Shown: piece after piece, positions 4,041 to 27,484 of the stretch
Position numbering within the stretch: the stretch's first letter is position 1
Layout: every line of letters begins with the position of its first letter
Source of the DNA: Candidatus Bathyarchaeota archaeon
Lineage (GTDB): Archaea > Thermoproteota > Bathyarchaeia > Bathyarchaeales > Bathycorpusculaceae
Assembly (NCBI GenBank): GCA_029879735.1
Contig: JAOUPS010000002.1
Location: 1 to 64,000, forward strand
Direction of reading: 5' to 3'
DNA: 64,000 bases
Position numbers and translations under genes: made by a program
Notes under the pieces: model-generated
Seen by the model: the letters and a program-made list of their open reading frames with translations, nothing else
What the model was told of the DNA's origin: nothing
Database searches by the model: none

Positions 4041-6692
4041 TTGAAAAGAATGCAGGGTGATTTGACACGTTTACTCGCATTTCCAAAGAACGCCTCAGAA
4101 GCAACTACAGGCGTTTTCTTTCCTAAGGATAATCTACTTGTTACCGGGCACGATAATGGTGTGGTTTTCTTATGGAATTTATCAGACGGATCTTCTCGAA
4201 AACTGTATGAGTGCTCTACAAAAATCGAAACAGTTACTGCTTCAGAAAAACAGGAACTTGCAATAGGTTCTCATTCAGGCGAAATTGTGGTCTTATCCAT
4301 AGAAAGACCAGGTCATACTATTGTCCAACCTGCTGCCTATGGCGTAAGAGATCGGGTGTGGAGATCCCTTTGGCTCCAAGATGATGCATTTATAACGAGT
4401 TCAACATATGGCTTGCTTAATGTATTCAGAAAGGAAGCTGACTCCAAGTGGACCAAAAATTCTCTATCAGGACATGAGAATAGTGTATTTGGCGTGGGTA
4501 GGTCAGATAGAGGCTTGTTAACTACGGGTGATTACTTCGGAAAGATTCTAATCTGGAACTTAGGCGATGGCGGATACGAACCTATTCAAAGGCTGAAAAT
4601 CCAAAACGCAGTGGAAGACATAGCTTGGTTTAAAGATGAGGCTTTTGCGGCAATCAATAACGGAGGCGGGATCTATCTATTTGAGCAAGACTCAGAGCGT
4701 AGATGGAGATCAGTATTTGAAGTGAGAAATGCCACAAGCCGGGGGAACTGTGTAAACATAACGCCTGATGGAAAGACAGTTTTCGCAGCAACAAATAGAG
4801 AAGTTATTCAGTTCGATATAGAAACGCGGCAAATAGATTCTATGAGAACTGGTGGAGTTAAAAAGATATTCTTCAAGGAGAATAATGTGTTCCTGTTAAC
4901 ATCCCATAGTTTAGTGTTTTTTGAAAGAAAGCCAATTGAGCTTAGGGCTGATCTCATCAAATATAAATATGTTAAGACGGGTCTTGTTGGCCATACCGGT
5001 GTAGGAAAAAGTACACTTTGCAGCTTTGTGACAACCGGTTCACCTCCTGCCGACTATTTGTCTACTGTTGGAAAGAAAATCTGGAACTGGGAATTGCCTG
5101 TGGAAGAAAACTTACAAAGAAGGATAGTTCTTCATGACCACGGTGGCCAAGAGACTGTTCTTGGCACTTTTCTTCCCTTCCTATCAGATTCTGATGTTGT
5201 CTTGATTCTATTCCAGCAAAATGACCTCGTCACTTATGAAAAAGCGATAAAAATTTTTGAAAAAATAAAGAATAAGGTTGCCGATAGAGTCAAGATTTTC
5301 TTCGTTCAAACCCATATAGATCAAAAAATGGCTGAGTTGAATACGGCAAAAATGGAAAAACTCATAGAAAGAGGAGAATTGATTGACAACCTGAAAGTTT
5401 GCCCTAAGGATGGTAAGGGCATAGAAGACTTGAAGGAACGTCTAACAAAAGAGATTTCGTGGAATAATGCGAGAATAATGATTCAAACGTTAAACGCGAA
5501 TGCTGTTTTGAGATGCATTGTAGCACTGCAAGAGAAAAATATTGGGGTTATCCAACTGAGTGAGTTCATCAAGTATTATGAAGAAAGTACTAACCTGAGA
5601 ATTCCAAGGCGTCATCTTGAGTTTCTTCTGAAGGATTATAGCAATCAAGGAATAATAGAGTACTATCCAGAAATTTTGGATTCAATCATCTTCAATGACC
5701 CCGAATACAATTCACTGAAAACAGAGATACCGATTGAAGCTATGAAGAGAAATGGAATAGTAAAGATAGGAGACCTTGCAGCCCTCTTCAAGAACGGCAA
5801 ATTCCTACAAATGATAGATAAGATGTATCTCAAACATAAGGTTTGGATAGAAAATGGTGAATGGAGAATATTCCCCGAACTACTCAAAGACGAAGCCATA
5901 GAGATACCTAAACACCTAATCAAGTTTTTCGAGAATATATCCACTGAAAAAAGATTGTTGCCAGATCAGATGATCGATATTGGGCGACTTATTGAAGCAC
6001 TTTTTGAATTGAAACTGCAATGTATTGATGCATCAAAGAAAGATGGACTTTTTTCATGGAAAGAACATGCATTGATTTACTATAGTTTTGAACGAATTGG
6101 TAACGCGATTGATGGGTTCTCTTTCCGATGCAATTATCGTATCGGGGGGATGAAGAAACAGATTTGCAAGAGATTGAAGACAGAGTTCCTAAACGTTTTA
6201 GAACAGCTCTATGGCCCCTTTCTAAAAGAAGAAACATTAGAGAATAAAAAAAAAGCTGATTTAGATAGGGATATAGTTCACGACGTTGCCATATCTTATG
6301 CAACTGAACAAGGAGAATATGCGGGAAAGGTAGCGGATATTCTTAGAGAGAACGGCATAGTTGTCTTTTTTGACGGATGGAACGCGGCAAAAATGTGGGG
6401 AAGAGACCTCGCAGAATATTTAATGCGCGTCTACTATCGACAATCCAAGTATTGCATGATGTTTATTTCTAAAGATTACGTATCAAAAGCTTGGCCTACT
6501 TATGAACGAAAGATGGCAATAGCCAGAAATATTGAACAGTTCGGCGGGTATATCCTTCCCATAAGGTTTGACGAATCTGAAGTACCAGGTCTTCCCCCGA
6601 CAGTTAGATACATTAACGGTAACAACAAGACACCAGAAGACGTTGCAGACCTATTTATTGAAAAACTTGAGGAAGAAGAAGACAAAGGTTAG
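4041..6692 (+). CDS. WD40 - ROC GTPase - winged helix/COR-like - TIR domain protein
   Basis: An 883-aa multidomain protein. Residues about 1-305 form WD40-type beta-propeller repeats (blades ending in VFLWNL, ILIWNL). A Ras-of-complex GTPase follows: Walker A GHTGVGKST at 317-325, switch II DHGGQE at 366-371, and THID at 424-427 in place of the usual N/TKxD. Residues about 480-740 resemble the winged-helix/COR region of Roco proteins. The C-terminal TIR domain (about 745-883) includes FDGWNAAKMWGRDLAEYL and SKDYVSKAW; E822 in TYERK sits where NADase TIR domains place their catalytic glutamate. Start may be TTG 4041 or ATG 4050. Bacterial and archaeal TIR proteins often cleave NAD+ or make cyclic-ADPR-type signals in antiviral defence. 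A sensor (WD40), GTPase switch and TIR effector architecture fits that role, which I infer. Confidence 0.85.
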   Translation: MKRMQGDLTRLLAFPKNASEATTGVFFPKDNLLVTGHDNGVVFLWNLSDGSSRKLYECSTKIETVTASEKQELAIGSHSGEIVVLSIERPGHTIVQPAAYGVRDRVWRSLWLQDDAFITSSTYGLLNVFRKEADSKWTKNSLSGHENSVFGVGRSDRGLLTTGDYFGKILIWNLGDGGYEPIQRLKIQNAVEDIAWFKDEAFAAINNGGGIYLFEQDSERRWRSVFEVRNATSRGNCVNITPDGKTVFAATNREVIQFDIETRQIDSMRTGGVKKIFFKENNVFLLTSHSLVFFERKPIELRADLIKYKYVKTGLVGHTGVGKSTLCSFVTTGSPPADYLSTVGKKIWNWELPVEENLQRRIVLHDHGGQETVLGTFLPFLSDSDVVLILFQQNDLVTYEKAIKIFEKIKNKVADRVKIFFVQTHIDQKMAELNTAKMEKLIERGELIDNLKVCPKDGKGIEDLKERLTKEISWNNARIMIQTLNANAVLRCIVALQEKNIGVIQLSEFIKYYEESTNLRIPRRHLEFLLKDYSNQGIIEYYPEILDSIIFNDPEYNSLKTEIPIEAMKRNGIVKIGDLAALFKNGKFLQMIDKMYLKHKVWIENGEWRIFPELLKDEAIEIPKHLIKFFENISTEKRLLPDQMIDIGRLIEALFELKLQCIDASKKDGLFSWKEHALIYYSFERIGNAIDGFSFRCNYRIGGMKKQICKRLKTEFLNVLEQLYGPFLKEETLENKKKADLDRDIVHDVAISYATEQGEYAGKVADILRENGIVVFFDGWNAAKMWGRDLAEYLMRVYYRQSKYCMMFISKDYVSKAWPTYERKMAIARNIEQFGGYILPIRFDESEVPGLPPTVRYINGNNKTPEDVADLFIEKLEEEEDKG

Positions 6693-15079: not shown

Positions 15080-16183
15080 ATGTCCAAAAATTTTGATTTT
15101 GAGCAGCTAGTTGATTTATCTAATTGGACAGACTTCGACACTTTCATGCAAGACTTCGGTGAGAGATTGGATCGCGACATCAAAAAGTCTATAGATACCC
15201 GGCGGAAGCTTAGGAAGACCCTTCTCAGCAACCCTAAAATAAGGAAGGCTATTCGTCCTCGGAAGGAAGATGTTAAGAAGTGGGAGTCGCTACTGGAGTG
15301 GGCGGGGGATGAGTTATTTGGGGGGAATGTGTGTGGTGTTGACGGGACGCTTTCTCATTATCCTATGGCTTCTGGGACGAGATGTAGGATAGGAATAGTC
15401 GCTACTTCTTACAGAAACAATAGGATTGAAAGGGTGTTGTACGTGTCTGAGAGGGAGCTTGCAGAGCCCTCTAAGACGCCTATGGAGCATTATAATAAAC
15501 TTCTTGAAGGCCATCGGGTCACAAACATGTTGGTCAGGGCAATTATGCTTTATGGAGAGAGGCAGCTGGCGCTTCAGAGGCCGGAGAAATGGAAGTTTGT
15601 TCATGGTCAACTATTGCCTTATGAGTTGAGGACCGGTTTGGGCGCTTATCGTGCCTTAGATGTGAGTTTGGAAATGGGAAAGAAGTTGATCAAGGAGAAG
15701 ACAGTTATAGGTATTATAGAAGATACTACACGTTTGGATCTTCTTAATGCAGGAATCATTCTCGAGAGGGGTGAGTACATGCCTGCGACCGACCTCAAAA
15801 GGGAACTTGAAATCTATCTTTATGGCGATGACGAAAAGGGCATTTCAGGCGCTCACTTCAACCCAAAGGACAGGGCGAAATTTGAAAAGTTCATTGACAA
15901 ATACGCTGCCAACATAAAGGTAGGAATTTTCAGGATAGGTTACAAACCGTATCTCTTTCACGCTCATAAGGATGTCTTTGATGAAGCTGCTGCCTTAATA
16001 GCGAGGGATAGTATGAACCAACCAATGCGTGGCTTTCCACTCTTGGTAGACTATGCTGACGAGATCTGTAGCAAAGTGCTTTCCTCAGGTGATTTTCAGA
16101 AGCAGATCACGTCTAGAATAGCTAAGATCAGCCCGGACGCTTTGGGATTTGAAATGATAGCTAGAAGCACGAGGAGGAGATGA
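15080..16183 (+). CDS. nurA: NurA 5'-3' nuclease
   Basis: A 367-aa NurA-domain protein. The first metal-binding aspartate is D88 in GVDGTLSHYPMASG, and a later acidic site is IIEDTTR near 210. The helical insert and C-terminal HAHKDVFDEAAALIARDSM match the family. NurA is a single- and double-strand exo/endonuclease that works with HerA to resect DNA ends for homologous recombination. The stop overlaps the herA start (ATGA), giving translational coupling. Mre11/Rad50, often adjacent in other archaea, are not in this window. Confidence 0.9.
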   Translation: MSKNFDFEQLVDLSNWTDFDTFMQDFGERLDRDIKKSIDTRRKLRKTLLSNPKIRKAIRPRKEDVKKWESLLEWAGDELFGGNVCGVDGTLSHYPMASGTRCRIGIVATSYRNNRIERVLYVSERELAEPSKTPMEHYNKLLEGHRVTNMLVRAIMLYGERQLALQRPEKWKFVHGQLLPYELRTGLGAYRALDVSLEMGKKLIKEKTVIGIIEDTTRLDLLNAGIILERGEYMPATDLKRELEIYLYGDDEKGISGAHFNPKDRAKFEKFIDKYAANIKVGIFRIGYKPYLFHAHKDVFDEAAALIARDSMNQPMRGFPLLVDYADEICSKVLSSGDFQKQITSRIAKISPDALGFEMIARSTRRR

Positions 16184-17775
16184 AAGTGCGCAAGAAAGAG
16201 AAGCTTCTAGGCCATATTCATTTCGATACACCAACTTTGGATAATTATATTTCTGAGGTTTTGGTGCCTAAAGAAAGAGTGAACGATGTTTTGCGCAACA
16301 GATATGTAAAAATTGATTCTGACAACAACATCACCTTTTTGGGTCGAGTGATTGAGGGCCCCTTTTACATTCCAGAAGAGGTTGCCAGAGGATCTGCTTT
16401 TGCTCAAACGTCAATATTGAAAGGCGCGGAATTTCAGGCAGTGCCCAACTATTACGCTCTTGTGCGAGTCGAACTGCTCGGCAAATATACCGGCGGAAAA
16501 CTTTTTTCTACTAATACGCGACCGACGCCTAAGTCACCGGTGATTGAGCTGGACACAAAGGAAGTCCAAAATCTCATAGGCCTTCGAGGAGATGCCTTGA
16601 TCGGTAGGCATGTAGGCTATGAGGCAGTTAAAATTTTGATGGATTCAACAACGAAGAATGTTTTTCCCAGAAATATTGGTATTTTTGGTACCGTTGGTTC
16701 AGGTAAGACAAACACTGCCCAAGTGATCATTGAAGAGACTAGTGAGGCAGGGTATGCTGTTATTATAGTTGATGTAGAGGGGGAGTACATAAGTATGGAT
16801 GAGCCAACAGGCATACTGGAGGATAAGCTGTCCGAGTTTGGCCTGAAACCTGAAGGACTCAAAGATTTCGGCGTTTACTTCCCCGTCGCCGGTGAAACCA
16901 AAAGAAAGAAGGCGATCCCGTTTGATATAAAATTTAGTTCAATGGATCCGTACATTCTAGCGGAGATCCTGCGATTTACTGAAGCTCAGGAAAGGGTTTT
17001 TCACAAATTGGTGGGAATGCTTCAGGCAAAGAGGAAAAAGGGAGAGGAAGAAGAGGACGAAACCTTAGCTTTCCTCATGGGTAAACCAAGAGGAAGGAGA
17101 AGAGAATACACAATTCTGAGTGCAATTAAACAGATATACGCTATGGGAAAGGAGCTCAAAGGTGGCGAGAGAATCTCAAGCTATACATTGTCTTCAAAGC
17201 TTGCCAAGCTGAGGAGGCAGAACATTTTTGATCAACCTGACGCCAGTGAAATTCAAGTTGGGTCACTTCTAAGAAAGGGCCGAGTCAGCGTCATAGATGT
17301 CAGTGGCTGCACCGCGGAGGTCAAAAACATAGTCATAGCTTGGTTGTTGGACAAAGTATTCGATCTGAAGATGAAAGCCCCTGAACGTACACCAAAAATC
17401 TTAGTGTTGATTGAGGAAGCCCACACTTTTGTTAGCAGAGAGAACGTAGACAGGATGTCGGCAACAGTAGATATGCTTAGGATGATAGCTAGGCGTGGCC
17501 GCAAGAGATGGTTATGCCTAGGCTTCATATCTCAACAGCCCGCGCATTTGCCGAGTGAGATCTTCGAATTGTGCAACACCCGAATAATTCACGGGATCAA
17601 AAGTGAGAGAAATATCAATGCTCTGAAAGCAACCGGTGGAGATATCGTCGAAAAGCTTTGGAATCAGGTTCCGGGTCTTGGTGTAGGAGAAGCTTTAGTT
17701 TCTAGCCCACAGTATACTCACTCGATTGTTATTGATGTTAGACCATGCAAGTGCAAGAGAGAACTTGTAGCTTGA
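16180..17775 (+). CDS. herA: HerA DNA helicase/translocase
   Basis: A 531-aa hexameric HerA/FtsK-superfamily ATPase. A HAS-barrel forms the first ~150 residues. Walker A is GTVGSGKTN at about 170-178, Walker B is LVLIEEAHTF near 410, and the arginine-rich segment RRGRKRWLCLGFISQQP precedes HIIHGIKSERN-like sensor sequence. HerA pumps DNA into NurA for end resection. The gene overlaps nurA by four bases and ends 40 bp before a convergent methyltransferase gene. Confidence 0.92.
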   Translation: MKVRKKEKLLGHIHFDTPTLDNYISEVLVPKERVNDVLRNRYVKIDSDNNITFLGRVIEGPFYIPEEVARGSAFAQTSILKGAEFQAVPNYYALVRVELLGKYTGGKLFSTNTRPTPKSPVIELDTKEVQNLIGLRGDALIGRHVGYEAVKILMDSTTKNVFPRNIGIFGTVGSGKTNTAQVIIEETSEAGYAVIIVDVEGEYISMDEPTGILEDKLSEFGLKPEGLKDFGVYFPVAGETKRKKAIPFDIKFSSMDPYILAEILRFTEAQERVFHKLVGMLQAKRKKGEEEEDETLAFLMGKPRGRRREYTILSAIKQIYAMGKELKGGERISSYTLSSKLAKLRRQNIFDQPDASEIQVGSLLRKGRVSVIDVSGCTAEVKNIVIAWLLDKVFDLKMKAPERTPKILVLIEEAHTFVSRENVDRMSATVDMLRMIARRGRKRWLCLGFISQQPAHLPSEIFELCNTRIIHGIKSERNINALKATGGDIVEKLWNQVPGLGVGEALVSSPQYTHSIVIDVRPCKCKRELVA

Positions 17776-17815: not shown

Positions 17816-19156
17816 TTAGGGTTTTTCTAGTATTATGATGTACTCATGAGGGTAAACCAGTTTGTTACTTGCACAGTTCGTTGACGCAAATTGCCCAGTT
17901 TCTTGATTTCTAATAGATGGTAGCCATTTCTTGTTGCTTGGTATTTGCCTCTTGATAACCTTCAGTAACTTGAAACCTACGTTGATTGATATTTCACTTA
18001 GAACTTCTGCATTTAGTATATTTACGTCTCCGAGGGTTGTGTTTCCTATAACAATACTTGCGATGCCACCTGGTTTAAGAACGCGAGTAAATTGTTCAAA
18101 GGCCTGTTGCATTTCAGCAAAATATGTGAAAACAGCGTCTGCGCATCCATTTAGGTAATGGTTCTTATTTCCATTGACCTTTGAACCTTCATTTTTAAGC
18201 CTTCTTACGATTTCGTTTCCAATTTCGCTGTGTATTTCCTTGACACTGACATCTTTCGGTTGTGTTGTTCCGATGTGATCCTTGCGGTTTTCTGTCATGT
18301 CGGTTTCGGGATTTATCCAGAGGAGTGTGAGTTGGTGAAGATCTGCATATTCGTAGGAAGTGACATATGGCGGGCTAGTTGCAATGATGGACACATATTC
18401 GTCTTCGCAAGGGATGTGCCTACAGTCTTCGCAAAATACATCCAAGTAATCGCTAAGTCTTGCTTTGACTTTTTTAGGTAAGATCTCATAATATTCTTTG
18501 TTCTTTCTTGTCATGTGTATGATGCGGCGTTTGAATGTTGGTATGGCTCTAGGTATATTCTTGTCTTTGTCTCTGGCCGGTTTAATAGAGTCCATGTTCC
18601 AGCATGAGCAGTTTTTCAGGATGTGTGAAAAACCGCATTTGAGGAAGTCTTGTACAGCTTTCTCTTGCATATCTTCTATTAATGAAAGAATAAGGGACAG
18701 GTTACGGATTGTATCGTCGCCAAACCAGAATCTCACCCTGTCATAGTTGGGAGATTCTCTGATCCTTTCCATCACTTTATTATCTGTTTTGTTCTTTTGA
18801 GGATTTAGCTTCGCAAAGAGTTTTGAGACATGCATTTCGAGTAGTTGTGGTTTAATGTATGTGGTTTTTGCCTTGGTGATGAGATAGGCAACGGGATTTA
18901 TGTCAACGCCAAGTGCGCGTCTTTGGATTAGTAGTGCTTCAAGGAGTGTTGTTCCGCATCCAACAAACGGGTCGCATATTAATTCTTCTTCGTTGCTGTA
19001 TTCCTTGATGATGCGTCTTACGAGTTGTGGGATGAACTTTGCTGGATATCTATGGTAACTGTGGGTAAGATAAGCAGTGTCTTTCGGCGTTAAATCTCTA
19101 TAGGTCCATGATTCATCTGTCTTTAAGGATGCAAAGTACTTAAGAATGTGCTTCAT
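17816..19156 (-). CDS. DNA methyltransferase, TSPPY type (N4-cytosine or N6-adenine)
   Basis: A 446-aa protein. The SAM-binding motif DPFVGCGTTLLEALL is near residues 60-75 and the catalytic TSPPYVTSYEYADL near 259. A C-terminal block GGIASIVIGNTTLGDVNI completes the Rossmann core. TSPPY points to amino-group methylation. It lies 42 bp downstream of the type IIG-like gene on the same strand, so the two probably form one restriction-modification operon, with this enzyme methylating a second strand or a second site. The recognition sequence cannot be inferred. Confidence 0.85.
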   Translation of the reverse strand: MKHILKYFASLKTDESWTYRDLTPKDTAYLTHSYHRYPAKFIPQLVRRIIKEYSNEEELICDPFVGCGTTLLEALLIQRRALGVDINPVAYLITKAKTTYIKPQLLEMHVSKLFAKLNPQKNKTDNKVMERIRESPNYDRVRFWFGDDTIRNLSLILSLIEDMQEKAVQDFLKCGFSHILKNCSCWNMDSIKPARDKDKNIPRAIPTFKRRIIHMTRKNKEYYEILPKKVKARLSDYLDVFCEDCRHIPCEDEYVSIIATSPPYVTSYEYADLHQLTLLWINPETDMTENRKDHIGTTQPKDVSVKEIHSEIGNEIVRRLKNEGSKVNGNKNHYLNGCADAVFTYFAEMQQAFEQFTRVLKPGGIASIVIGNTTLGDVNILNAEVLSEISINVGFKLLKVIKRQIPSNKKWLPSIRNQETGQFASTNCASNKLVYPHEYIIILEKP

Positions 19157-19198: not shown

Positions 19199-22100
19199 TT
19201 AAAACTTTTCCAGAAAACTTTCTATGATAGTTTTATCGTCCTCATTCATACTATATAATTGGTAAACTAACTCATTGAGCTCCTCTTCAAGTTGTTCGAT
19301 GGGTGTAGCCTTAACCTCTTCTGCCGTCTTTTTCACATTCTCTAGAATTTCTGTTACTATTGAGTTATCCCTCGGAACAAGTATTTTCACAGTTTCATTT
19401 TGATTTACCTTTCTATTTCTAAGCGCCAAAATCAAATACTGCGCCTTTTCCTTAGTATCTACCCAAATAGAGTCCTCGCCTTCACTAGGATAAACAACAT
19501 AGCCTTTGCCTGATAACCCACTAAGGAAGGGCTTCAATTCGCTATGGTCTGTATTGAAAGTATGTTTAACATCGTCAAACTCTTCACCCCTTAGCCTATA
19601 ATGTTTTAAATAAATTTCAGGAAATTCCTCGACTAATCGTTTCGGTTTAACTTGATGGCGAATCTTTTGAACTATTTGAGCTATTTGCCCAACAATTTCT
19701 TTTTCTTGGTCGGACATAACTAGTCTTATGGGGAGTTTTTCCAAGTATTGCGTCTTATATCGAAAATACTTACCAGAAACAAACGGACTAGTTTGCTTAA
19801 GGTAAAATTCAAGTAGCTTAGAGTTTAATTCTGCAAGTAACAAGTAGTAGTTGTATTTGTCTCTAAAATTGTCCTTTAAAATAAGCCCGTAGGTCGTGTC
19901 AGTGATATAGTATTTTTCTTCATCGAGCGCAAAATTGCTCTTGTCAGAAACGTCGGGTGTCACAACTTTTTTTTGCCCAAGCCACTCAGGATTTCTCGGA
20001 CACCAGATCTCATACCATTCATGCCTTAACCCGTTTTTTATAGCATTCATTAGATATTCTTTACTCTTCAAGATCTTTTCATGTTCCTTAAAGTACGCCC
20101 ATGTCTTTGGGTATAACTTTTCTAGTTCAGTTCTTGGAATTACTACGACTTTACCCTGATCAATTCTATGTGGATAAATAATCCATAAATTCTGCCAATC
20201 AATGTCCCATCTCTTAATAAATTCGCCTTTTATCAATTTTTTCAGAAGAGCTTTTTCTATTTCAAAGTATTTCCCGGTGTTCAAATAACCTAAAGGTTGG
20301 ATTCTAGCAAGACCGTTTGGTAGATCATGCATTAGATGGACCCAGAAAATATCAATAGGGGTAGCTTGTATTCCCACAGATATTCTTTTGCATATTTTCT
20401 CCAAAGTGTAGTCTGAGTTCTTTTCAATTTTCTTCATAAGTCGGAAATGTGTTTCGGGAAGGAATCTCCATTTTTCCTTTTCTAAATTAGATTGATTAAC
20501 TTGAAAAATATCAACATAAAGGTCTGAATATTCCTGTTTGCCTATACTCTTCTTTATATGATCTAGCAGATTCTCCTTTGTTTTTTTTACTCTCACAAAT
20601 CGCATGTTGTGGTCTGGTCTTTTCGTTTTCGTTAAAATATAGATACTTGGGTAATTAGTGACTTCGGAAAAGACTCCACTATCACCGAAGTCCAGAAATT
20701 GTTCGATTATACAATTCTTTAGAATAAATTCTCTAATACTTTTGCCGTAATGCGATTGAACAAATTTATTATTTGTTATGAATCCAATTTTTCCACTTTT
20801 TTGTAGCCAGTCTATACCTTTTTCCAAAAAAAGTATGTAGAGGTCGAACTTCCCGTAAGCTGTTTCATAAGATTCTCTGTACTGGTTTCTAAGATGTTTT
20901 GGTATCCTTTGAACTTTAACGTAAGGCGGGTTTCCGACCACAAATTCATATCGTAAATAATTCTTTAGAAGAGACGCTAGTACTCCGTCTTCTATGGACT
21001 TTATTAGCCGTCCATCTTCAAATTCAGATTCTATACGTTTGGTTTCACCTAGAATATGGTCCGCATAGGGTTTGAAGAAATTCGCCAATAAGGTGAAATC
21101 TTTGTCTCTTAGATACTCTTGAAGAGGACCTTTAAGCCCCTCCTCTGGAACATGTTCCCCTCTTACCCTTAATTGAATCTTGATCGCGTCGAACATTGCC
21201 TGCAGCGTGCAAAAATATTCATCAAGATTGTATAGTGGCAACTCTTGTGACAGAATTTTTCTCCACGAAGGCAAAATGATGTCTACAGATATAGAGCTTT
21301 CACTATCAATCTTCATTGGCAGCGTAACCGGAAAAACTATGTCTTCTTCGGTTTCAGCTAGTTGAAGTTGCTTTTGAAATTCCGGCGGTAGCATCTCGAT
21401 AGCTAATGAGTCAGTTCTAAAAATTGGTATTCGTTTTAGGTAGAATATGCGAGGAGCTTCTTCTTCTAACGCCTTCTTAAAGTATGGGATAAGTTCAAGC
21501 ATAAACCTAGTTCTGGCAATTAAGCAGGCAAAAGGATGGATGTCAAACCCTACAATTTTCGGACTGTTACACAATTCTCTCAGAACATAAGCCCAGCCAT
21601 GTTTTTTCGCTTTCCCCTCAGCTTCTCTTAGATACCGCTCTAAAGCTTCCACAATGAAAGTACCTGAGCCACACGCAGGATCAAGCAATCGGTTAGATCC
21701 AATGTTTTTGTATCCAACAGCATCCAAAATGTAATCAACGACTTCGACCGGTGTGTAGAACTCACCCAACGCTTTTCTAGTGTCTTTGTCGAAATACTTT
21801 TGATAAAGATCGCCTAGTGGATCGCCTGCGACTTCTCTGAAATCGAACTTGTAAAGCATGAAAATAACCTTGGCTGCTGCTTCGCTAAAATCTTCTAATC
21901 GCTTATCTACACTCTCCTGTAACAGCTCGCTAGAAGATTTTTGCATAAATTCTGTAAACCCGTCTCTCCACCAGCCGAAAATATCATCCTCAAAAAGAGA
22001 GTAAACGAGTTGATCTCTCATCTCTCTAATAACACCACTCAAGACAAGCGGATATGCCACAAGTGGGATCTGCCCCCTGACTTGATGAATTTTTTGCAAA

Positions 22101-22939
22101 GTAAAACCGGAAACGCTGATTCCTGGAAAATCAAGATCCTCACAAGCCTTAGCAACAATCAATCTCGCCAGTAACGCATGAGCAGTCTCAAGACAGAACA
22201 TACAACGGAAAACATCACGCTTCTCCTTCAGAAATGGCGCCCACGAATCTGGAATCTTCTTCGGCTTTCGTGCCAAGGATTTCTGCCAAAAACCATAAGC
22301 TCCTTTCAGAAACTTCGACTTCGGATAAACAAAGTCAAACAATTCAACTAGGCTAGTCAGCAATGATCCAAATACAGAATCCTCTTCCAGTTTGAAGGTT
22401 TCAAAGAAATCCTCTTTGGCGAGTTGTGTTTTCAGAGATAACTTTTCAACACTTGAAAAATATTCTTCAACCCTCGAATAGAGGGTGAGATCGTACTCCG
22501 GCTTCTTAAGTATGCGAAACAATTTATCAGATTTTTTCTGGCTGATCTTACTCAAATCAACGGTCAAAATCCGCTCTGGATTTTCTCCAATCTTCTTGTA
22601 AACCATGAATTTCCAGCCATTCGTCAAAGCACCATACCTAGCTTTCAAGGGTAAAACGTATCTATTCCAAAGCTGACTTAAGGCATCACTTAACGTTCGA
22701 TGAGAAGGCTTTTTCGCCTCCAAAACAAAAACTGCATTCTGATACTCATCACGACAAACATAATCAGCTTTTTTTCGTTTCCCAGGAACAACACGCTGCG
22801 CCCTCACATCCTTCCCAAACTTCTTGTAACCAAGCTTTCTGAAGAACCTAGAATTAATAAGAACCTCATACAACTCATCCTCAGACATTAATGGATTTTC
22901 AGCCACGCGTCTGTAAATGTATTCAAGACACTCTTTCAT
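19199..22939 (-). CDS. Type IIG-like restriction-modification enzyme (nuclease + N6-adenine methylase)
   Basis: A 1246-aa protein. The N-terminal domain has a PD-(D/E)XK pattern (ADYVCRDEYQNAVFVLEAKK, D then E-A-K) near residues 58-78. A helical connector leads to the methylase, with LLDPACGSGTFIVEAL near 415-430 and FVVGNPPYVKVQRIP near 665. A TaqI-type specificity region follows (about 850-1130), with KTQYLEKLPI near its end, then a coiled-coil tail. This order is that of Eco57I/MmeI-type single-chain enzymes, which cut and methylate. Long type IIG-like proteins also act in phage defence. The partner methyltransferase is directly downstream. Start is ATG at 22939. Confidence 0.85.
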   Translation of the reverse strand: MKECLEYIYRRVAENPLMSEDELYEVLINSRFFRKLGYKKFGKDVRAQRVVPGKRKKADYVCRDEYQNAVFVLEAKKPSHRTLSDALSQLWNRYVLPLKARYGALTNGWKFMVYKKIGENPERILTVDLSKISQKKSDKLFRILKKPEYDLTLYSRVEEYFSSVEKLSLKTQLAKEDFFETFKLEEDSVFGSLLTSLVELFDFVYPKSKFLKGAYGFWQKSLARKPKKIPDSWAPFLKEKRDVFRCMFCLETAHALLARLIVAKACEDLDFPGISVSGFTLQKIHQVRGQIPLVAYPLVLSGVIREMRDQLVYSLFEDDIFGWWRDGFTEFMQKSSSELLQESVDKRLEDFSEAAAKVIFMLYKFDFREVAGDPLGDLYQKYFDKDTRKALGEFYTPVEVVDYILDAVGYKNIGSNRLLDPACGSGTFIVEALERYLREAEGKAKKHGWAYVLRELCNSPKIVGFDIHPFACLIARTRFMLELIPYFKKALEEEAPRIFYLKRIPIFRTDSLAIEMLPPEFQKQLQLAETEEDIVFPVTLPMKIDSESSISVDIILPSWRKILSQELPLYNLDEYFCTLQAMFDAIKIQLRVRGEHVPEEGLKGPLQEYLRDKDFTLLANFFKPYADHILGETKRIESEFEDGRLIKSIEDGVLASLLKNYLRYEFVVGNPPYVKVQRIPKHLRNQYRESYETAYGKFDLYILFLEKGIDWLQKSGKIGFITNNKFVQSHYGKSIREFILKNCIIEQFLDFGDSGVFSEVTNYPSIYILTKTKRPDHNMRFVRVKKTKENLLDHIKKSIGKQEYSDLYVDIFQVNQSNLEKEKWRFLPETHFRLMKKIEKNSDYTLEKICKRISVGIQATPIDIFWVHLMHDLPNGLARIQPLGYLNTGKYFEIEKALLKKLIKGEFIKRWDIDWQNLWIIYPHRIDQGKVVVIPRTELEKLYPKTWAYFKEHEKILKSKEYLMNAIKNGLRHEWYEIWCPRNPEWLGQKKVVTPDVSDKSNFALDEEKYYITDTTYGLILKDNFRDKYNYYLLLAELNSKLLEFYLKQTSPFVSGKYFRYKTQYLEKLPIRLVMSDQEKEIVGQIAQIVQKIRHQVKPKRLVEEFPEIYLKHYRLRGEEFDDVKHTFNTDHSELKPFLSGLSGKGYVVYPSEGEDSIWVDTKEKAQYLILALRNRKVNQNETVKILVPRDNSIVTEILENVKKTAEEVKATPIEQLEEELNELVYQLYSMNEDDKTIIESFLEKF

Positions 22940-24001: not shown

Positions 24002-24085
24002 ACCTACGAAGGAATAGCGTGCGTTCAAATCCCATCCTATTTTCGTCGCGCTTGTGGTACCGTATATAAGACTTCACGGAGAACG

Positions 24086-24259
24086 TTGGTATTCACTGTC
24101 AACACGGATGATCCTAACCGTGATACTGGTTTACCTTCACTAAAGGTTGATAGAACTGGAACATTCAGTTTCAAGAAGAGACTAGACTTGCGATTCCGTT
24201 GCGTAAAAGATGGAGTGAAATATGAGATAGGGAGCTTGTACATCGGATTCCCTAAGTAG
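24086..24259 (+). CDS. Short reading frame, possible C-terminal remnant
   Basis: A 57-aa frame from TTG to TAG. Its sequence (VNTDDPNRDTGLPSLKV, KDGVKYEIGSLYIGFPK) has a protein-like composition and is in the same frame as the preceding HTH gene, separated only by that gene's TGA at 23999-24001 and about 28 codons. It may be the detached end of a larger protein. No Shine-Dalgarno sequence is seen. Confidence 0.3.
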   Translation: MVFTVNTDDPNRDTGLPSLKVDRTGTFSFKKRLDLRFRCVKDGVKYEIGSLYIGFPK

Positions 24260-24324
24260 AAAACTCACGAATGCGAGTGCTGTGTATAGACTAAATGCAT
24301 AAAAGTTACGCGTTTTCGCGCACG

Positions 24325-25116
24325 CTAATTCGTGATGGTCAATAGAAACTTCTGTAGATTTTCCAACCTGATAACTTGATCGCAATAACTTCTCAATATT
24401 CTCAAATCCCGCTGAGACCAATCACCAGAAATGACAACAACAAATCTCATCTCTGGATTCGCTCTTTTCAAATCAGTTGCAATAAAAGCAAGTTCCCGGG
24501 CAAAGTGAAAACCACCAACGCGCGACGTAGTATGCTTAACCTCGATAGCAACCGGCGCTTCTATCTCTAAGAGGAAGTCAACTCTTGAAGTAGTTGAATA
24601 TCCATCGATTTTTACTTCTCTTCTGAAGGCTATTCCCGAATTTTCGAGAATGCCCTGAACCTTGGTTTCAACTATTTCCCCAATCCTATAGTAGCGACTT
24701 GGTTCTCTTATCTTGACAAAGTGCATAGCGACCTGCAACATCTCCTCTATATCACTTGGTTTTATAGAAGAGAGTGACTCAGGTAAATGCATAACTACAT
24801 TTCGAAGGTTCCTAACCTTTCGAAGTTCACGTGTTAAGACTGGGTCCTCTATCGCCTTCCAATCTTCAAGCTTGGAGAGAATCTGAGAAAAAGATGGCTT
24901 CTCAGCTTCCTTTTTCCTCGCTCGTGTGTCCATTCTCAGCCACCTTGGAGCAAGTTCATTATACTTTAGTCTCAAAACCATTTCAATCGAATTGTAGCAA
25001 TGACGAATCGTTTTCTCATATAGTGACGCCCTCTCATCTTTAGAGCAAAACCTTGCTTCATTAAACGATCGAAATGCTTGCGTAAGTTCCTTTTCCGCCT
25101 TTACTCTTTCCTTCAT
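24325..25116 (-). CDS. HEPN domain fused to a PD-(D/E)XK nuclease domain
   Basis: A 263-aa protein if started at ATG 25116, which overlaps the upstream stop as ATGA; a longer start at 25179 would run into that gene. The N-terminal helical domain (about 1-140) ends with R105-NVVM-H110, the Rx4H signature of HEPN ribonucleases. The C-terminal domain carries D180 (SRVDFLLEI) and E192-V-K194 (AIEVKHT), a restriction-endonuclease-like site. HEPN proteins are RNases in toxin-antitoxin, abortive-infection and CRISPR systems. Fusion with a DNA nuclease fold suggests an RNA- and DNA-cutting effector. Function is inferred; the neighbours (R-M genes, a second HEPN) support defence. Confidence 0.65.
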   Translation of the reverse strand: MKERVKAEKELTQAFRSFNEARFCSKDERASLYEKTIRHCYNSIEMVLRLKYNELAPRWLRMDTRARKKEAEKPSFSQILSKLEDWKAIEDPVLTRELRKVRNLRNVVMHLPESLSSIKPSDIEEMLQVAMHFVKIREPSRYYRIGEIVETKVQGILENSGIAFRREVKIDGYSTTSRVDFLLEIEAPVAIEVKHTTSRVGGFHFARELAFIATDLKRANPEMRFVVVISGDWSQRDLRILRSYCDQVIRLENLQKFLLTITN

Positions 25117-25514
25117 GAGGACTCCCCCAGCAACCTCTCTATTAAGCCAAAGAATTCTTGAGCCTTTGATATAAGCCAATTATAGTTAAATTCATCAGGT
25201 GCAAAGCAAGAATGATATACCATGTTTCTACTCTCGTGTAGGAGCATAAGATCCCCCTCAACGCTTCCTAATTCGGTTATGGTGCCCTTTAATGCTCTTA
25301 CCAATTGAGGGATTTGTTTCTGGCGATAATTCAGACCGTTCATGCGTGCTAGATCCTTAAGTAACAGTTCTATCGCATTATGGAAATGAATTATGGCCAC
25401 TCTCTGATCAAAAATCGTACCTTGTGAGTCATGTTCAAGGGCATGTTTGAACAAATCCTCGGCACCCTTCCGCAGAGGAGATTGAATGCTGGTTAAGGCT
25501 GCGCTTGGGGACAT
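25113..25514 (-). CDS. HEPN domain protein
   Basis: A 133-aa helical protein from ATG 25514 (a TTG at 25550 would add 12 residues). The motif R96-NMVY-H101 near the C-terminus is the Rx4H active site of HEPN RNases; HFHNAIELLLKDLA near 43-56 matches the conserved second helix. It overlaps the HEPN-nuclease gene by four bases, so the two are made together. HEPN pairs usually dimerise to build the RNase site. No MNT nucleotidyltransferase antitoxin is adjacent. A TATA-like ATAAATATT lies near 25556. Confidence 0.65.
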   Translation of the reverse strand: MSPSAALTSIQSPLRKGAEDLFKHALEHDSQGTIFDQRVAIIHFHNAIELLLKDLARMNGLNYRQKQIPQLVRALKGTITELGSVEGDLMLLHESRNMVYHSCFAPDEFNYNWLISKAQEFFGLIERLLGESS

Positions 25515-25696: not shown

Positions 25697-27484
25697 CTAT
25701 TCAACCTGTCTCTGCTTTTCCCATTCCGTTTTGCAATCCTCACAAATCCAGACCTCTTGACCTTTGAAGGTTTCAGCCTTCCAAGAAGTTAGTTTGTTAT
25801 AGCCACAAATCGCGCATTCATGCTTATCGTAAAACTTGTTGCTCCAGAAGGGTACCTTAATGTCTAAAAGTGTAACCGATGTTAACGATGTAACCGATAA
25901 GGGAAGAGTGCCCGCGTGTTTTTCGCTACTATTCTCAATGGTTTTAACATTCTTTTCTATGGAATTAGGCTCTGTTTTAGAGGGTAACACCCCTCTATTA
26001 TCGGTTACATTGGTTACGCCAGTTACAACCATAGGCAGCTTTGTCACAAATTCATAACCATACTTCTTTGCGATTCTTCTTAGCTTTGCTATGTCGAAAA
26101 TCCATGCTCTCTCTACTTTTTCACCTTTTCTTATGAGTTTGCGTTCACCACTCAAAACCTCTCTTAAGCGGAATCCGATCTTACGTTTTGTCACTACATC
26201 AAAATCTTGACAGTACATTTTATGAGCTGTCTTTTCGTCTATTTTTCCTTTCAAGTCTTCTTGCAGCCAATCCCAAATACGCACAAAAGGTAAGGGTTCA
26301 CCATCATAAAGACTGACTACCCCTCGAACAATATGTCCTTCCAACGTGTTCTGTTTCCGATCTAACCGTTCCCGAATCTGATCGTCAATAAAGTTGAAAA
26401 GCACATTATAAACTGGAATTCCGTGAGCTACCTGCAGGAGAGGTTTCCACAGTTCCTTAATTCTTCCCTTGAAAGGAAGCTCTATCTGTGGTAAGTCTTG
26501 AGTTCTGGTTTCCAGTCTCCACTTCAGCAGTTTATTTCTCAAATCTTCGAACCTTTTAGAATCGTCTTTTGAGAGATCAGCCCATTCTTTCTTTGGATAA
26601 CCTTCCGTCATCTGGATAAACAAGCATCTTTCAACAAACCCTTTAACACTGGGCAATTTTTCACTTGCGAAGGCTTTGAAGGAAAAAGTGTTGTAGTACT
26701 TTATGATTCTGTCATGTTCAAGCATGATGGTTCTCGGAACTTTTGCGCCTTTTTTGTAGCCACTCTTGTAAATCTTGATCTTGTCTCGGTCTCGGTCGAT
26801 GCCTTGAATCTCATCTTCCAGAATCACAGGAACACAATCTGCATCCTCTAAATAACCGTACACGTCTGCTGCTGGAACACTAACTGCAAACATAGGTCTA
26901 TAGGTCAATTCGTTTAGAAGGTTCAAGGCTGTAGTTTTTCCAGATTCGTTGTCGCCCACAAAATAAAGATAGCATGTAGTCACAAGTTTCTCTTGCTGAT
27001 ATGTCAATAACACACAGACAGCAAGAACATCCTTCCAGATTGGTTCCAAGTCTATGAAGGTTTCGAATTCCTCTCTGATTTGGTTATATAATGTTTGCTT
27101 GTCTGGAAGTGAGTCTTCAAAGAATTCATAAGGCTTGTATGGATAGTGTTTTGGTTCTTTGGGTTTGAAGGGTTTTCCATCTATAGTTACTTCTTCCAAG
27201 ACTTGAAATCCATTTTCGCTTTTCACCAGGAAAGTTGGTTTGTCATTGTATATGCACTCGAAATATCCGTTGTCACAAACGCCACTAACCTTTAACGGAA
27301 CAACCTTCTTTTTCTGTTTCTTCTGTTTAACCTTCGGGAAGAAGTCGCAGCACGCATCATCTCCAGGTCTGAGAACGCCTTTTCGAGCGTTTTCATAAAA
27401 TGGGCAGTTTGGAGTCATCCAGTATGCACATTGATTACACTTTTTGTTTACGAGGGCAGGTAGAAAATGTTCTGGTTTTCTCAT
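25697..27484 (-). CDS. Replicon-type P-loop ATPase with zinc-binding ends
   Basis: A 595-aa protein. The N-terminus has a cysteine cluster (KKCNQCAYWMTPNCPFY ... DDACCDFF). The ATPase core has Walker A GDNESGKTT at 177-185 and Walker B VPVILEDE at about 218-225, followed by sensor-like EKLPSVKGFVERC. The C-terminus is a zinc ribbon (HECAICGY ... WICEDC). Such proteins occur on archaeal plasmids and integrated elements, where they probably act as replicative helicase/primase-associated ATPases. The start overlaps the stop of the small zinc-ribbon gene (ATGA). It is the last gene of a four-gene operon. Confidence 0.65.
   Translation of the reverse strand: MRKPEHFLPALVNKKCNQCAYWMTPNCPFYENARKGVLRPGDDACCDFFPKVKQKKQKKKVVPLKVSGVCDNGYFECIYNDKPTFLVKSENGFQVLEEVTIDGKPFKPKEPKHYPYKPYEFFEDSLPDKQTLYNQIREEFETFIDLEPIWKDVLAVCVLLTYQQEKLVTTCYLYFVGDNESGKTTALNLLNELTYRPMFAVSVPAADVYGYLEDADCVPVILEDEIQGIDRDRDKIKIYKSGYKKGAKVPRTIMLEHDRIIKYYNTFSFKAFASEKLPSVKGFVERCLFIQMTEGYPKKEWADLSKDDSKRFEDLRNKLLKWRLETRTQDLPQIELPFKGRIKELWKPLLQVAHGIPVYNVLFNFIDDQIRERLDRKQNTLEGHIVRGVVSLYDGEPLPFVRIWDWLQEDLKGKIDEKTAHKMYCQDFDVVTKRKIGFRLREVLSGERKLIRKGEKVERAWIFDIAKLRRIAKKYGYEFVTKLPMVVTGVTNVTDNRGVLPSKTEPNSIEKNVKTIENSSEKHAGTLPLSVTSLTSVTLLDIKVPFWSNKFYDKHECAICGYNKLTSWKAETFKGQEVWICEDCKTEWEKQRQVE

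Follow-up and report, generated by a model that had tools for sequence, protein, structure and literature searches.

An overlapping archaeal gene pair encoding a HEPN protein and a candidate HEPN-PD-(D/E)XK nuclease

Two overlapping genes were found on the reverse strand of a contig from a Candidatus Bathyarchaeota archaeon, within the 64,000-nucleotide stretch analysed here, which we call the window (Table 1). Gene 1 encodes a small protein that we assign to the HEPN fold, and gene 2 a larger protein in which a HEPN part appears to be followed by a PD-(D/E)XK nuclease part. Both frames are open and intact, with the catalytic motifs retained in both. The original prediction had placed R96/H101 in gene 1, R105/H110, D180 and E192-V-K194 in gene 2, and an ATGA overlap between the two genes; all these residues were found at the predicted positions in the translated frames, and the four-base overlap was borne out. 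D180, E192 and K194 sit in RVDFLLEIEAPVAIEVK. The motif GGGGGAG, five bases upstream of the ATG of gene 2, could be a ribosome-binding site, with translational coupling of the two genes. Codon usage preferred the frame of gene 1 weakly (0.076 bits/codon) and that of gene 2 better (0.161 bits/codon), the yardstick being the mean of 17 reference ORFs (0.258 bits/codon). About 320 bases between gene 2 and an HTH gene on the plus strand (24002-24324) had no gene assigned.

Table 1. Features of the gene pair, of its neighbours and of two tandem-HEPN proteins related to gene 1. Positions without a prefix are those of the window; L033 and L028 denote loci elsewhere.
Feature	Position	Strand	Remarks
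Gene 1, stand-alone HEPN protein	25113..25514	-	133 aa, ATG start, RNMVYH at R96/H101
Gene 2, candidate HEPN + PD-(D/E)XK nuclease fusion	24325..25116	-	263 aa, ATG start
Gene 2, HEPN part (about residues 1-138)	24703..25116	-	motif R105-N-x3-H110 (RNVVMH)
Gene 2, PD-(D/E)XK part (about residues 139-263)	24328..24702	-	D180, E192-V-K194
ATGA stop/start overlap of gene 1 and gene 2	25113..25116	-	four bases
Type IIG-like restriction-modification gene	19199..22939	-	1246 aa; Eco57I methylase 1.4e-30, TaqI_C 2e-19, HSDR_N_2 2.4e-5
N6/N4 DNA methyltransferase	17816..19156	-	446 aa; profile matches
P-loop NTPase, C-terminal Cys motif	25697..27484	-	GDNESGKTT; upstream of the pair on the same strand
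Tandem HEPN-HEPN protein	L033:1177-1899	-	archaeon
Tandem HEPN-HEPN protein WP_000414754.1	L028:4007-4705	+	Leptospira plasmid; no Pfam HEPN assignment

The stretch around the pair looks like a defence or mobile cassette. The type IIG restriction-modification (R-M) locus that had been predicted about 1.4 kb away was recovered by Pfam profiles, its gene end lying 1.39 kb beyond gene 2. MNT domains (PF01909) were detected at six places in the genome and at none on the contig of the window, so that the predicted lack of an MNT antitoxin holds for the contig. The P-loop NTPase upstream of the pair is probably the replication helicase of an integrated element. Six of 91 related genomes had homologues of it at about 50% identity, flanked by different genes, and we therefore rejected a tie between the pair and such an element. 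A tyrosine integrase is also present in the window, farther from the pair. On the plus strand, a HerA-like ATPase gene (16180-17775) overlaps a 367-aa gene by four bases (15080-17775 together); the 367-aa protein gave no Pfam match, and the two are possibly a HerA-linked nuclease pair. Another plus-strand gene (4041-6692) encodes an 883-aa protein with an N-terminal WD40-type propeller, a Ras/Roc-like GTPase and a C-terminal TIR domain (TIR_2, E 2.3e-15; PADLOC PDC-S66, E 1.4e-13), which is likely a defence effector.

Alignment with its relatives gives good support to the assignment of gene 1 as HEPN, as R96, N97 and H101 were invariant across gene 1 and these relatives in two alignments. Gene 1 was the sole match in a PF05168 (HEPN) scan of the whole genome (E 0.0033, 18 bits), and its score under the curated cut-off of 22 reflects a limit of sensitivity and not a structural feature. 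Residues 1-140 of gene 2 matched DUF4145, a HEPN family (E 0.0011, 19.4 bits, under the cut-off of 23.1), and the HEPN sequences of the two genes had no detectable similarity to each other. For the nuclease half, residues 88-257 matched PADLOC PDC-M24B (E 1.4e-4; E 2e-4 for the half by itself), and residues 139-263 matched the SfsA nuclease domain (E 0.0049) and the DpnII-MboI REase (E 0.1). This half also aligned at 34% over 62 residues with a protein of a related genome (L020), itself a DpnII-MboI nuclease by PF18742 (E 1.4e-46). Support for PDC-M24B as the system of the pair stopped at the nuclease half of gene 2, the only half to match by itself; gene 1 fits no PADLOC model. The original prediction of a HEPN gene beside a HEPN-PD-(D/E)XK gene was well supported for gene 1, and the two domains of gene 2 are backed by several weak, independent profile matches. 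Neither gene passed the curated Pfam cut-offs in any of the three domains.

Single-sequence AlphaFold models of the two proteins were of low confidence (pLDDT 55 and 58). Gene 1 was modelled as helices, and the N-terminal half of gene 2 as five helices (pLDDT about 50-80), which is what a HEPN domain would show. In the low-confidence model of gene 2, the order after the five helices is alpha-beta-beta-alpha-beta-alpha-beta, as expected for PD-(D/E)XK, and D180, E192 and K194 lie on modelled strands 178-185 and 191-196 (pLDDT < 50). A Foldseek search with both models returned nothing significant (all E > 0.2), with the HEPN structures 1jog, 1wty and 8yuf at chance level only. We also estimated how often the motifs arise by chance. 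In shuffled copies of each protein, Rx4H occurred in 27-29%, which makes it weak evidence alone, and RNx3H in 1.3%; the strand-like pattern VDFL...(V/I)E(V/I)K occurred in none of 20,000 shuffles, all of these figures being a rough guide only because the patterns were tightened after the sequences had been seen. Since Rx4H is common by chance, the fold calls lean on the weak, independent profile matches and, for gene 1, also on the alignment with the invariant R-N-x3-H.

The relatives of gene 1 were informative about its possible partner. A five-member profile of gene 1 identified a 240-aa protein (L033) from a second archaeon of the same phylum. A tblastn search with gene 1 against plasmids gave weak matches in Leptospira and Sinorhizobium, one short match in Variovorax and nothing else. 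Gene 1 aligned with the first half of the archaeal protein (29% over 104 residues, pairwise E 9e-12) and with the first half of the Leptospira protein (pairwise E 3e-10), and hhalign gave a probability of 96% for the first half of the tandem chains against gene 1. The two tandem proteins are 41% identical over their length, across phyla, and each carries two HEPN-type motifs, RNxLYH followed by RNxLVH (RNELVH / RNNLVH). Their second half matched HEPN models weakly (DUF3644, Csx1). The occurrence of this family in an archaeon and on Leptospira plasmids suggests lateral transfer, judging from sequence similarity. That the closest relatives of gene 1 we found are the first halves of two-HEPN chains supports a two-HEPN assembly. 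Similarity between the HEPN part of gene 2 and the second half of the tandem chains was not detectable; hence, the parallel concerns the arrangement and is not proven descent. Six further relatives (L039, L040, L041, L042, L043 and L045), all from one archaeal family, are stand-alone proteins of 100-146 aa no longer carrying the full RNx3H motif, and they are possibly domesticated, non-catalytic versions. A weak HEPN relative was located inside a HEPN/MNT pair (L007). At another locus (L005:589-1743, plus strand), a 384-aa protein carries a larger domain followed by a C-terminus that appears HEPN-like (RNKVQH).

A search for the same pair next to defence genes elsewhere had been proposed, and no second copy turned up in the genomes and viral contigs searched. 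Searches of several hundred archaeal genomes from the class and phylum (the two sets overlap) did not recover the pair, and neither protein had close relatives in species-level genome contigs or viral contigs. For gene 2, no recognisable relative was found among the archaeal class and phylum genomes, species-level contigs, viral contigs, phages and plasmids, the last two searched by tblastn. Three of the loci with weak phylum matches to gene 2 were inspected and rejected, being an unrelated helical protein (L015), an MNT/HEPN neighbourhood (L019) and the DpnII-MboI nuclease L020. The tandem-HEPN alignment gave no match in viral contigs. The pair rests on a single locus.

HEPN RNases normally carry two Rx4H motifs at the dimer interface. 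A heterodimer of gene 1 and gene 2 is plausible from the sequences, and it is the simplest reading because the genes overlap and a second HEPN is already part of the chain in the nearest relatives of gene 1. With our confidence evenly balanced, we propose that the two genes encode a two-subunit nuclease effector in an archaeal defence or mobile-element stretch, made of a HEPN heterodimer with a PD-(D/E)XK arm and acting in a back-up, growth-arrest or suicide role. We infer its dimerisation, catalysis, trigger and role as follows. The HEPN domains of gene 1 and of the N-terminal half of gene 2 would pack together, and their two RNx3H motifs would make one RNA-cutting site, like other HEPN dimers, while the ATGA overlap would hold the subunits stoichiometric. 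The C-terminal PD-(D/E)XK domain would form a second arm, cutting or sensing DNA, and the response would be fired once this arm or another trigger meets invading DNA, beside the neighbouring R-M genes. Such a last-resort response would fit the pattern of HEPN co-effectors described in BREX-related and Dnd systems (PMC12839542, PMC10853773). A narrower version, a compact two-gene RNA/DNA suicide effector in which the composite site of a split HEPN:HEPN RNase is coupled to a DNA-cutting PD-(D/E)XK arm and the recognition or cutting of foreign DNA triggers RNA destruction without CRISPR, MNT or a helicase, is put forward tentatively and with considerably less than even confidence.

Alternatively, the pair could work like a toxin-antitoxin system, which we consider unlikely. 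The toxin would then be gene 2; gene 1, the earlier of the two to be made, would bind the HEPN half of gene 2 and keep it inactive, and the toxin would be released once gene 1 is lost. Antitoxin and toxin usually come in this order, with a small gene upstream of a larger nuclease gene and overlapping it, MNT is absent nearby, and a HEPN:HEPN interface would be a natural route to inhibition. However, gene 1 retains the catalytic R-N-x3-H, which would be needless in an inhibitor, and its relatives are tandem HEPN chains rather than antitoxins. Those tandem relatives, together with the four-base overlap, favour a joint complex and thereby also weigh against two separate homodimers made from a shared transcript, with gene 1 as a HEPN RNase and gene 2 as a HEPN-REase of the catalogued kind. 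We regard this as unlikely too, even though known HEPN RNases are mostly homodimers and the two HEPN sequences are dissimilar. HEPN-REase fusions are also known alone (PMC3710099). Finally, a single HEPN-HEPN-nuclease chain, which looks like two genes because the five-G run before the junction is one base off in length or is a site of programmed frameshifting, is improbable: the G-run lies directly 5' of the overlap, the relatives of gene 1 are single two-HEPN chains and the draft assembly comprises 156 contigs, but a stop/start overlap with a well-spaced GGGGGAG is typical of a genuine coupled pair, and no fused relative carrying the nuclease was found among the phylum genomes. The domain set would be unchanged under this reading.

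If the heteromer of gene 1 and gene 2 is real, it would illustrate how a minimal module of two genes can tie RNA cutting to the recognition of DNA with neither CRISPR nor MNT in control, and asymmetric HEPN dimers could be studied in it on a small scale. For now, what the pair contributes is a split-gene arrangement, in a field where many HEPN-restriction-nuclease combinations are already catalogued. Calling the effector unusual, as was done at first, was an overstatement, because Anantharaman et al. had listed HEPN-REase fusions in 2013 (PMC3710099), including DUF4145-REase, DUF86 with an archaeal Holliday-junction-resolvase-like REase, and EC042_2821; in defence, HEPN domains recur in company with REases (PMC3710099). 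Like those fusions, gene 2 appears to place a HEPN domain and a restriction-endonuclease-fold domain in a single chain close to R-M genes, whereas here a separate second HEPN gene overlaps the fusion gene and the family match stays under Pfam cut-offs. An overlapping second HEPN gene next to a HEPN-REase fusion was not described in the papers compared here, and each ingredient is already known.

The pair also shares features with three other arrangements. As in HEPN/MNT (HepT/MntA), a HEPN RNase motif occurs in a small two-gene module, but the partner here is HEPN plus nuclease and the contig has no MNT nucleotidyltransferase. Gene 1 is a homologue of the first HEPN in the tandem proteins of L033 and WP_000414754.1, in which a second HEPN motif comes after it; unlike the pair, these are single chains without a nuclease, and no homology between their second HEPN and that of gene 2 could be detected. 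No McrB/C was seen among the examined neighbours of the pair. CnuE of CoCoNuT type III-A resembles the proposed complex as a two-HEPN effector beside DNA restriction systems, and differs in consisting of wHTH-linked single chains in McrBC-type operons (PMC11090510).
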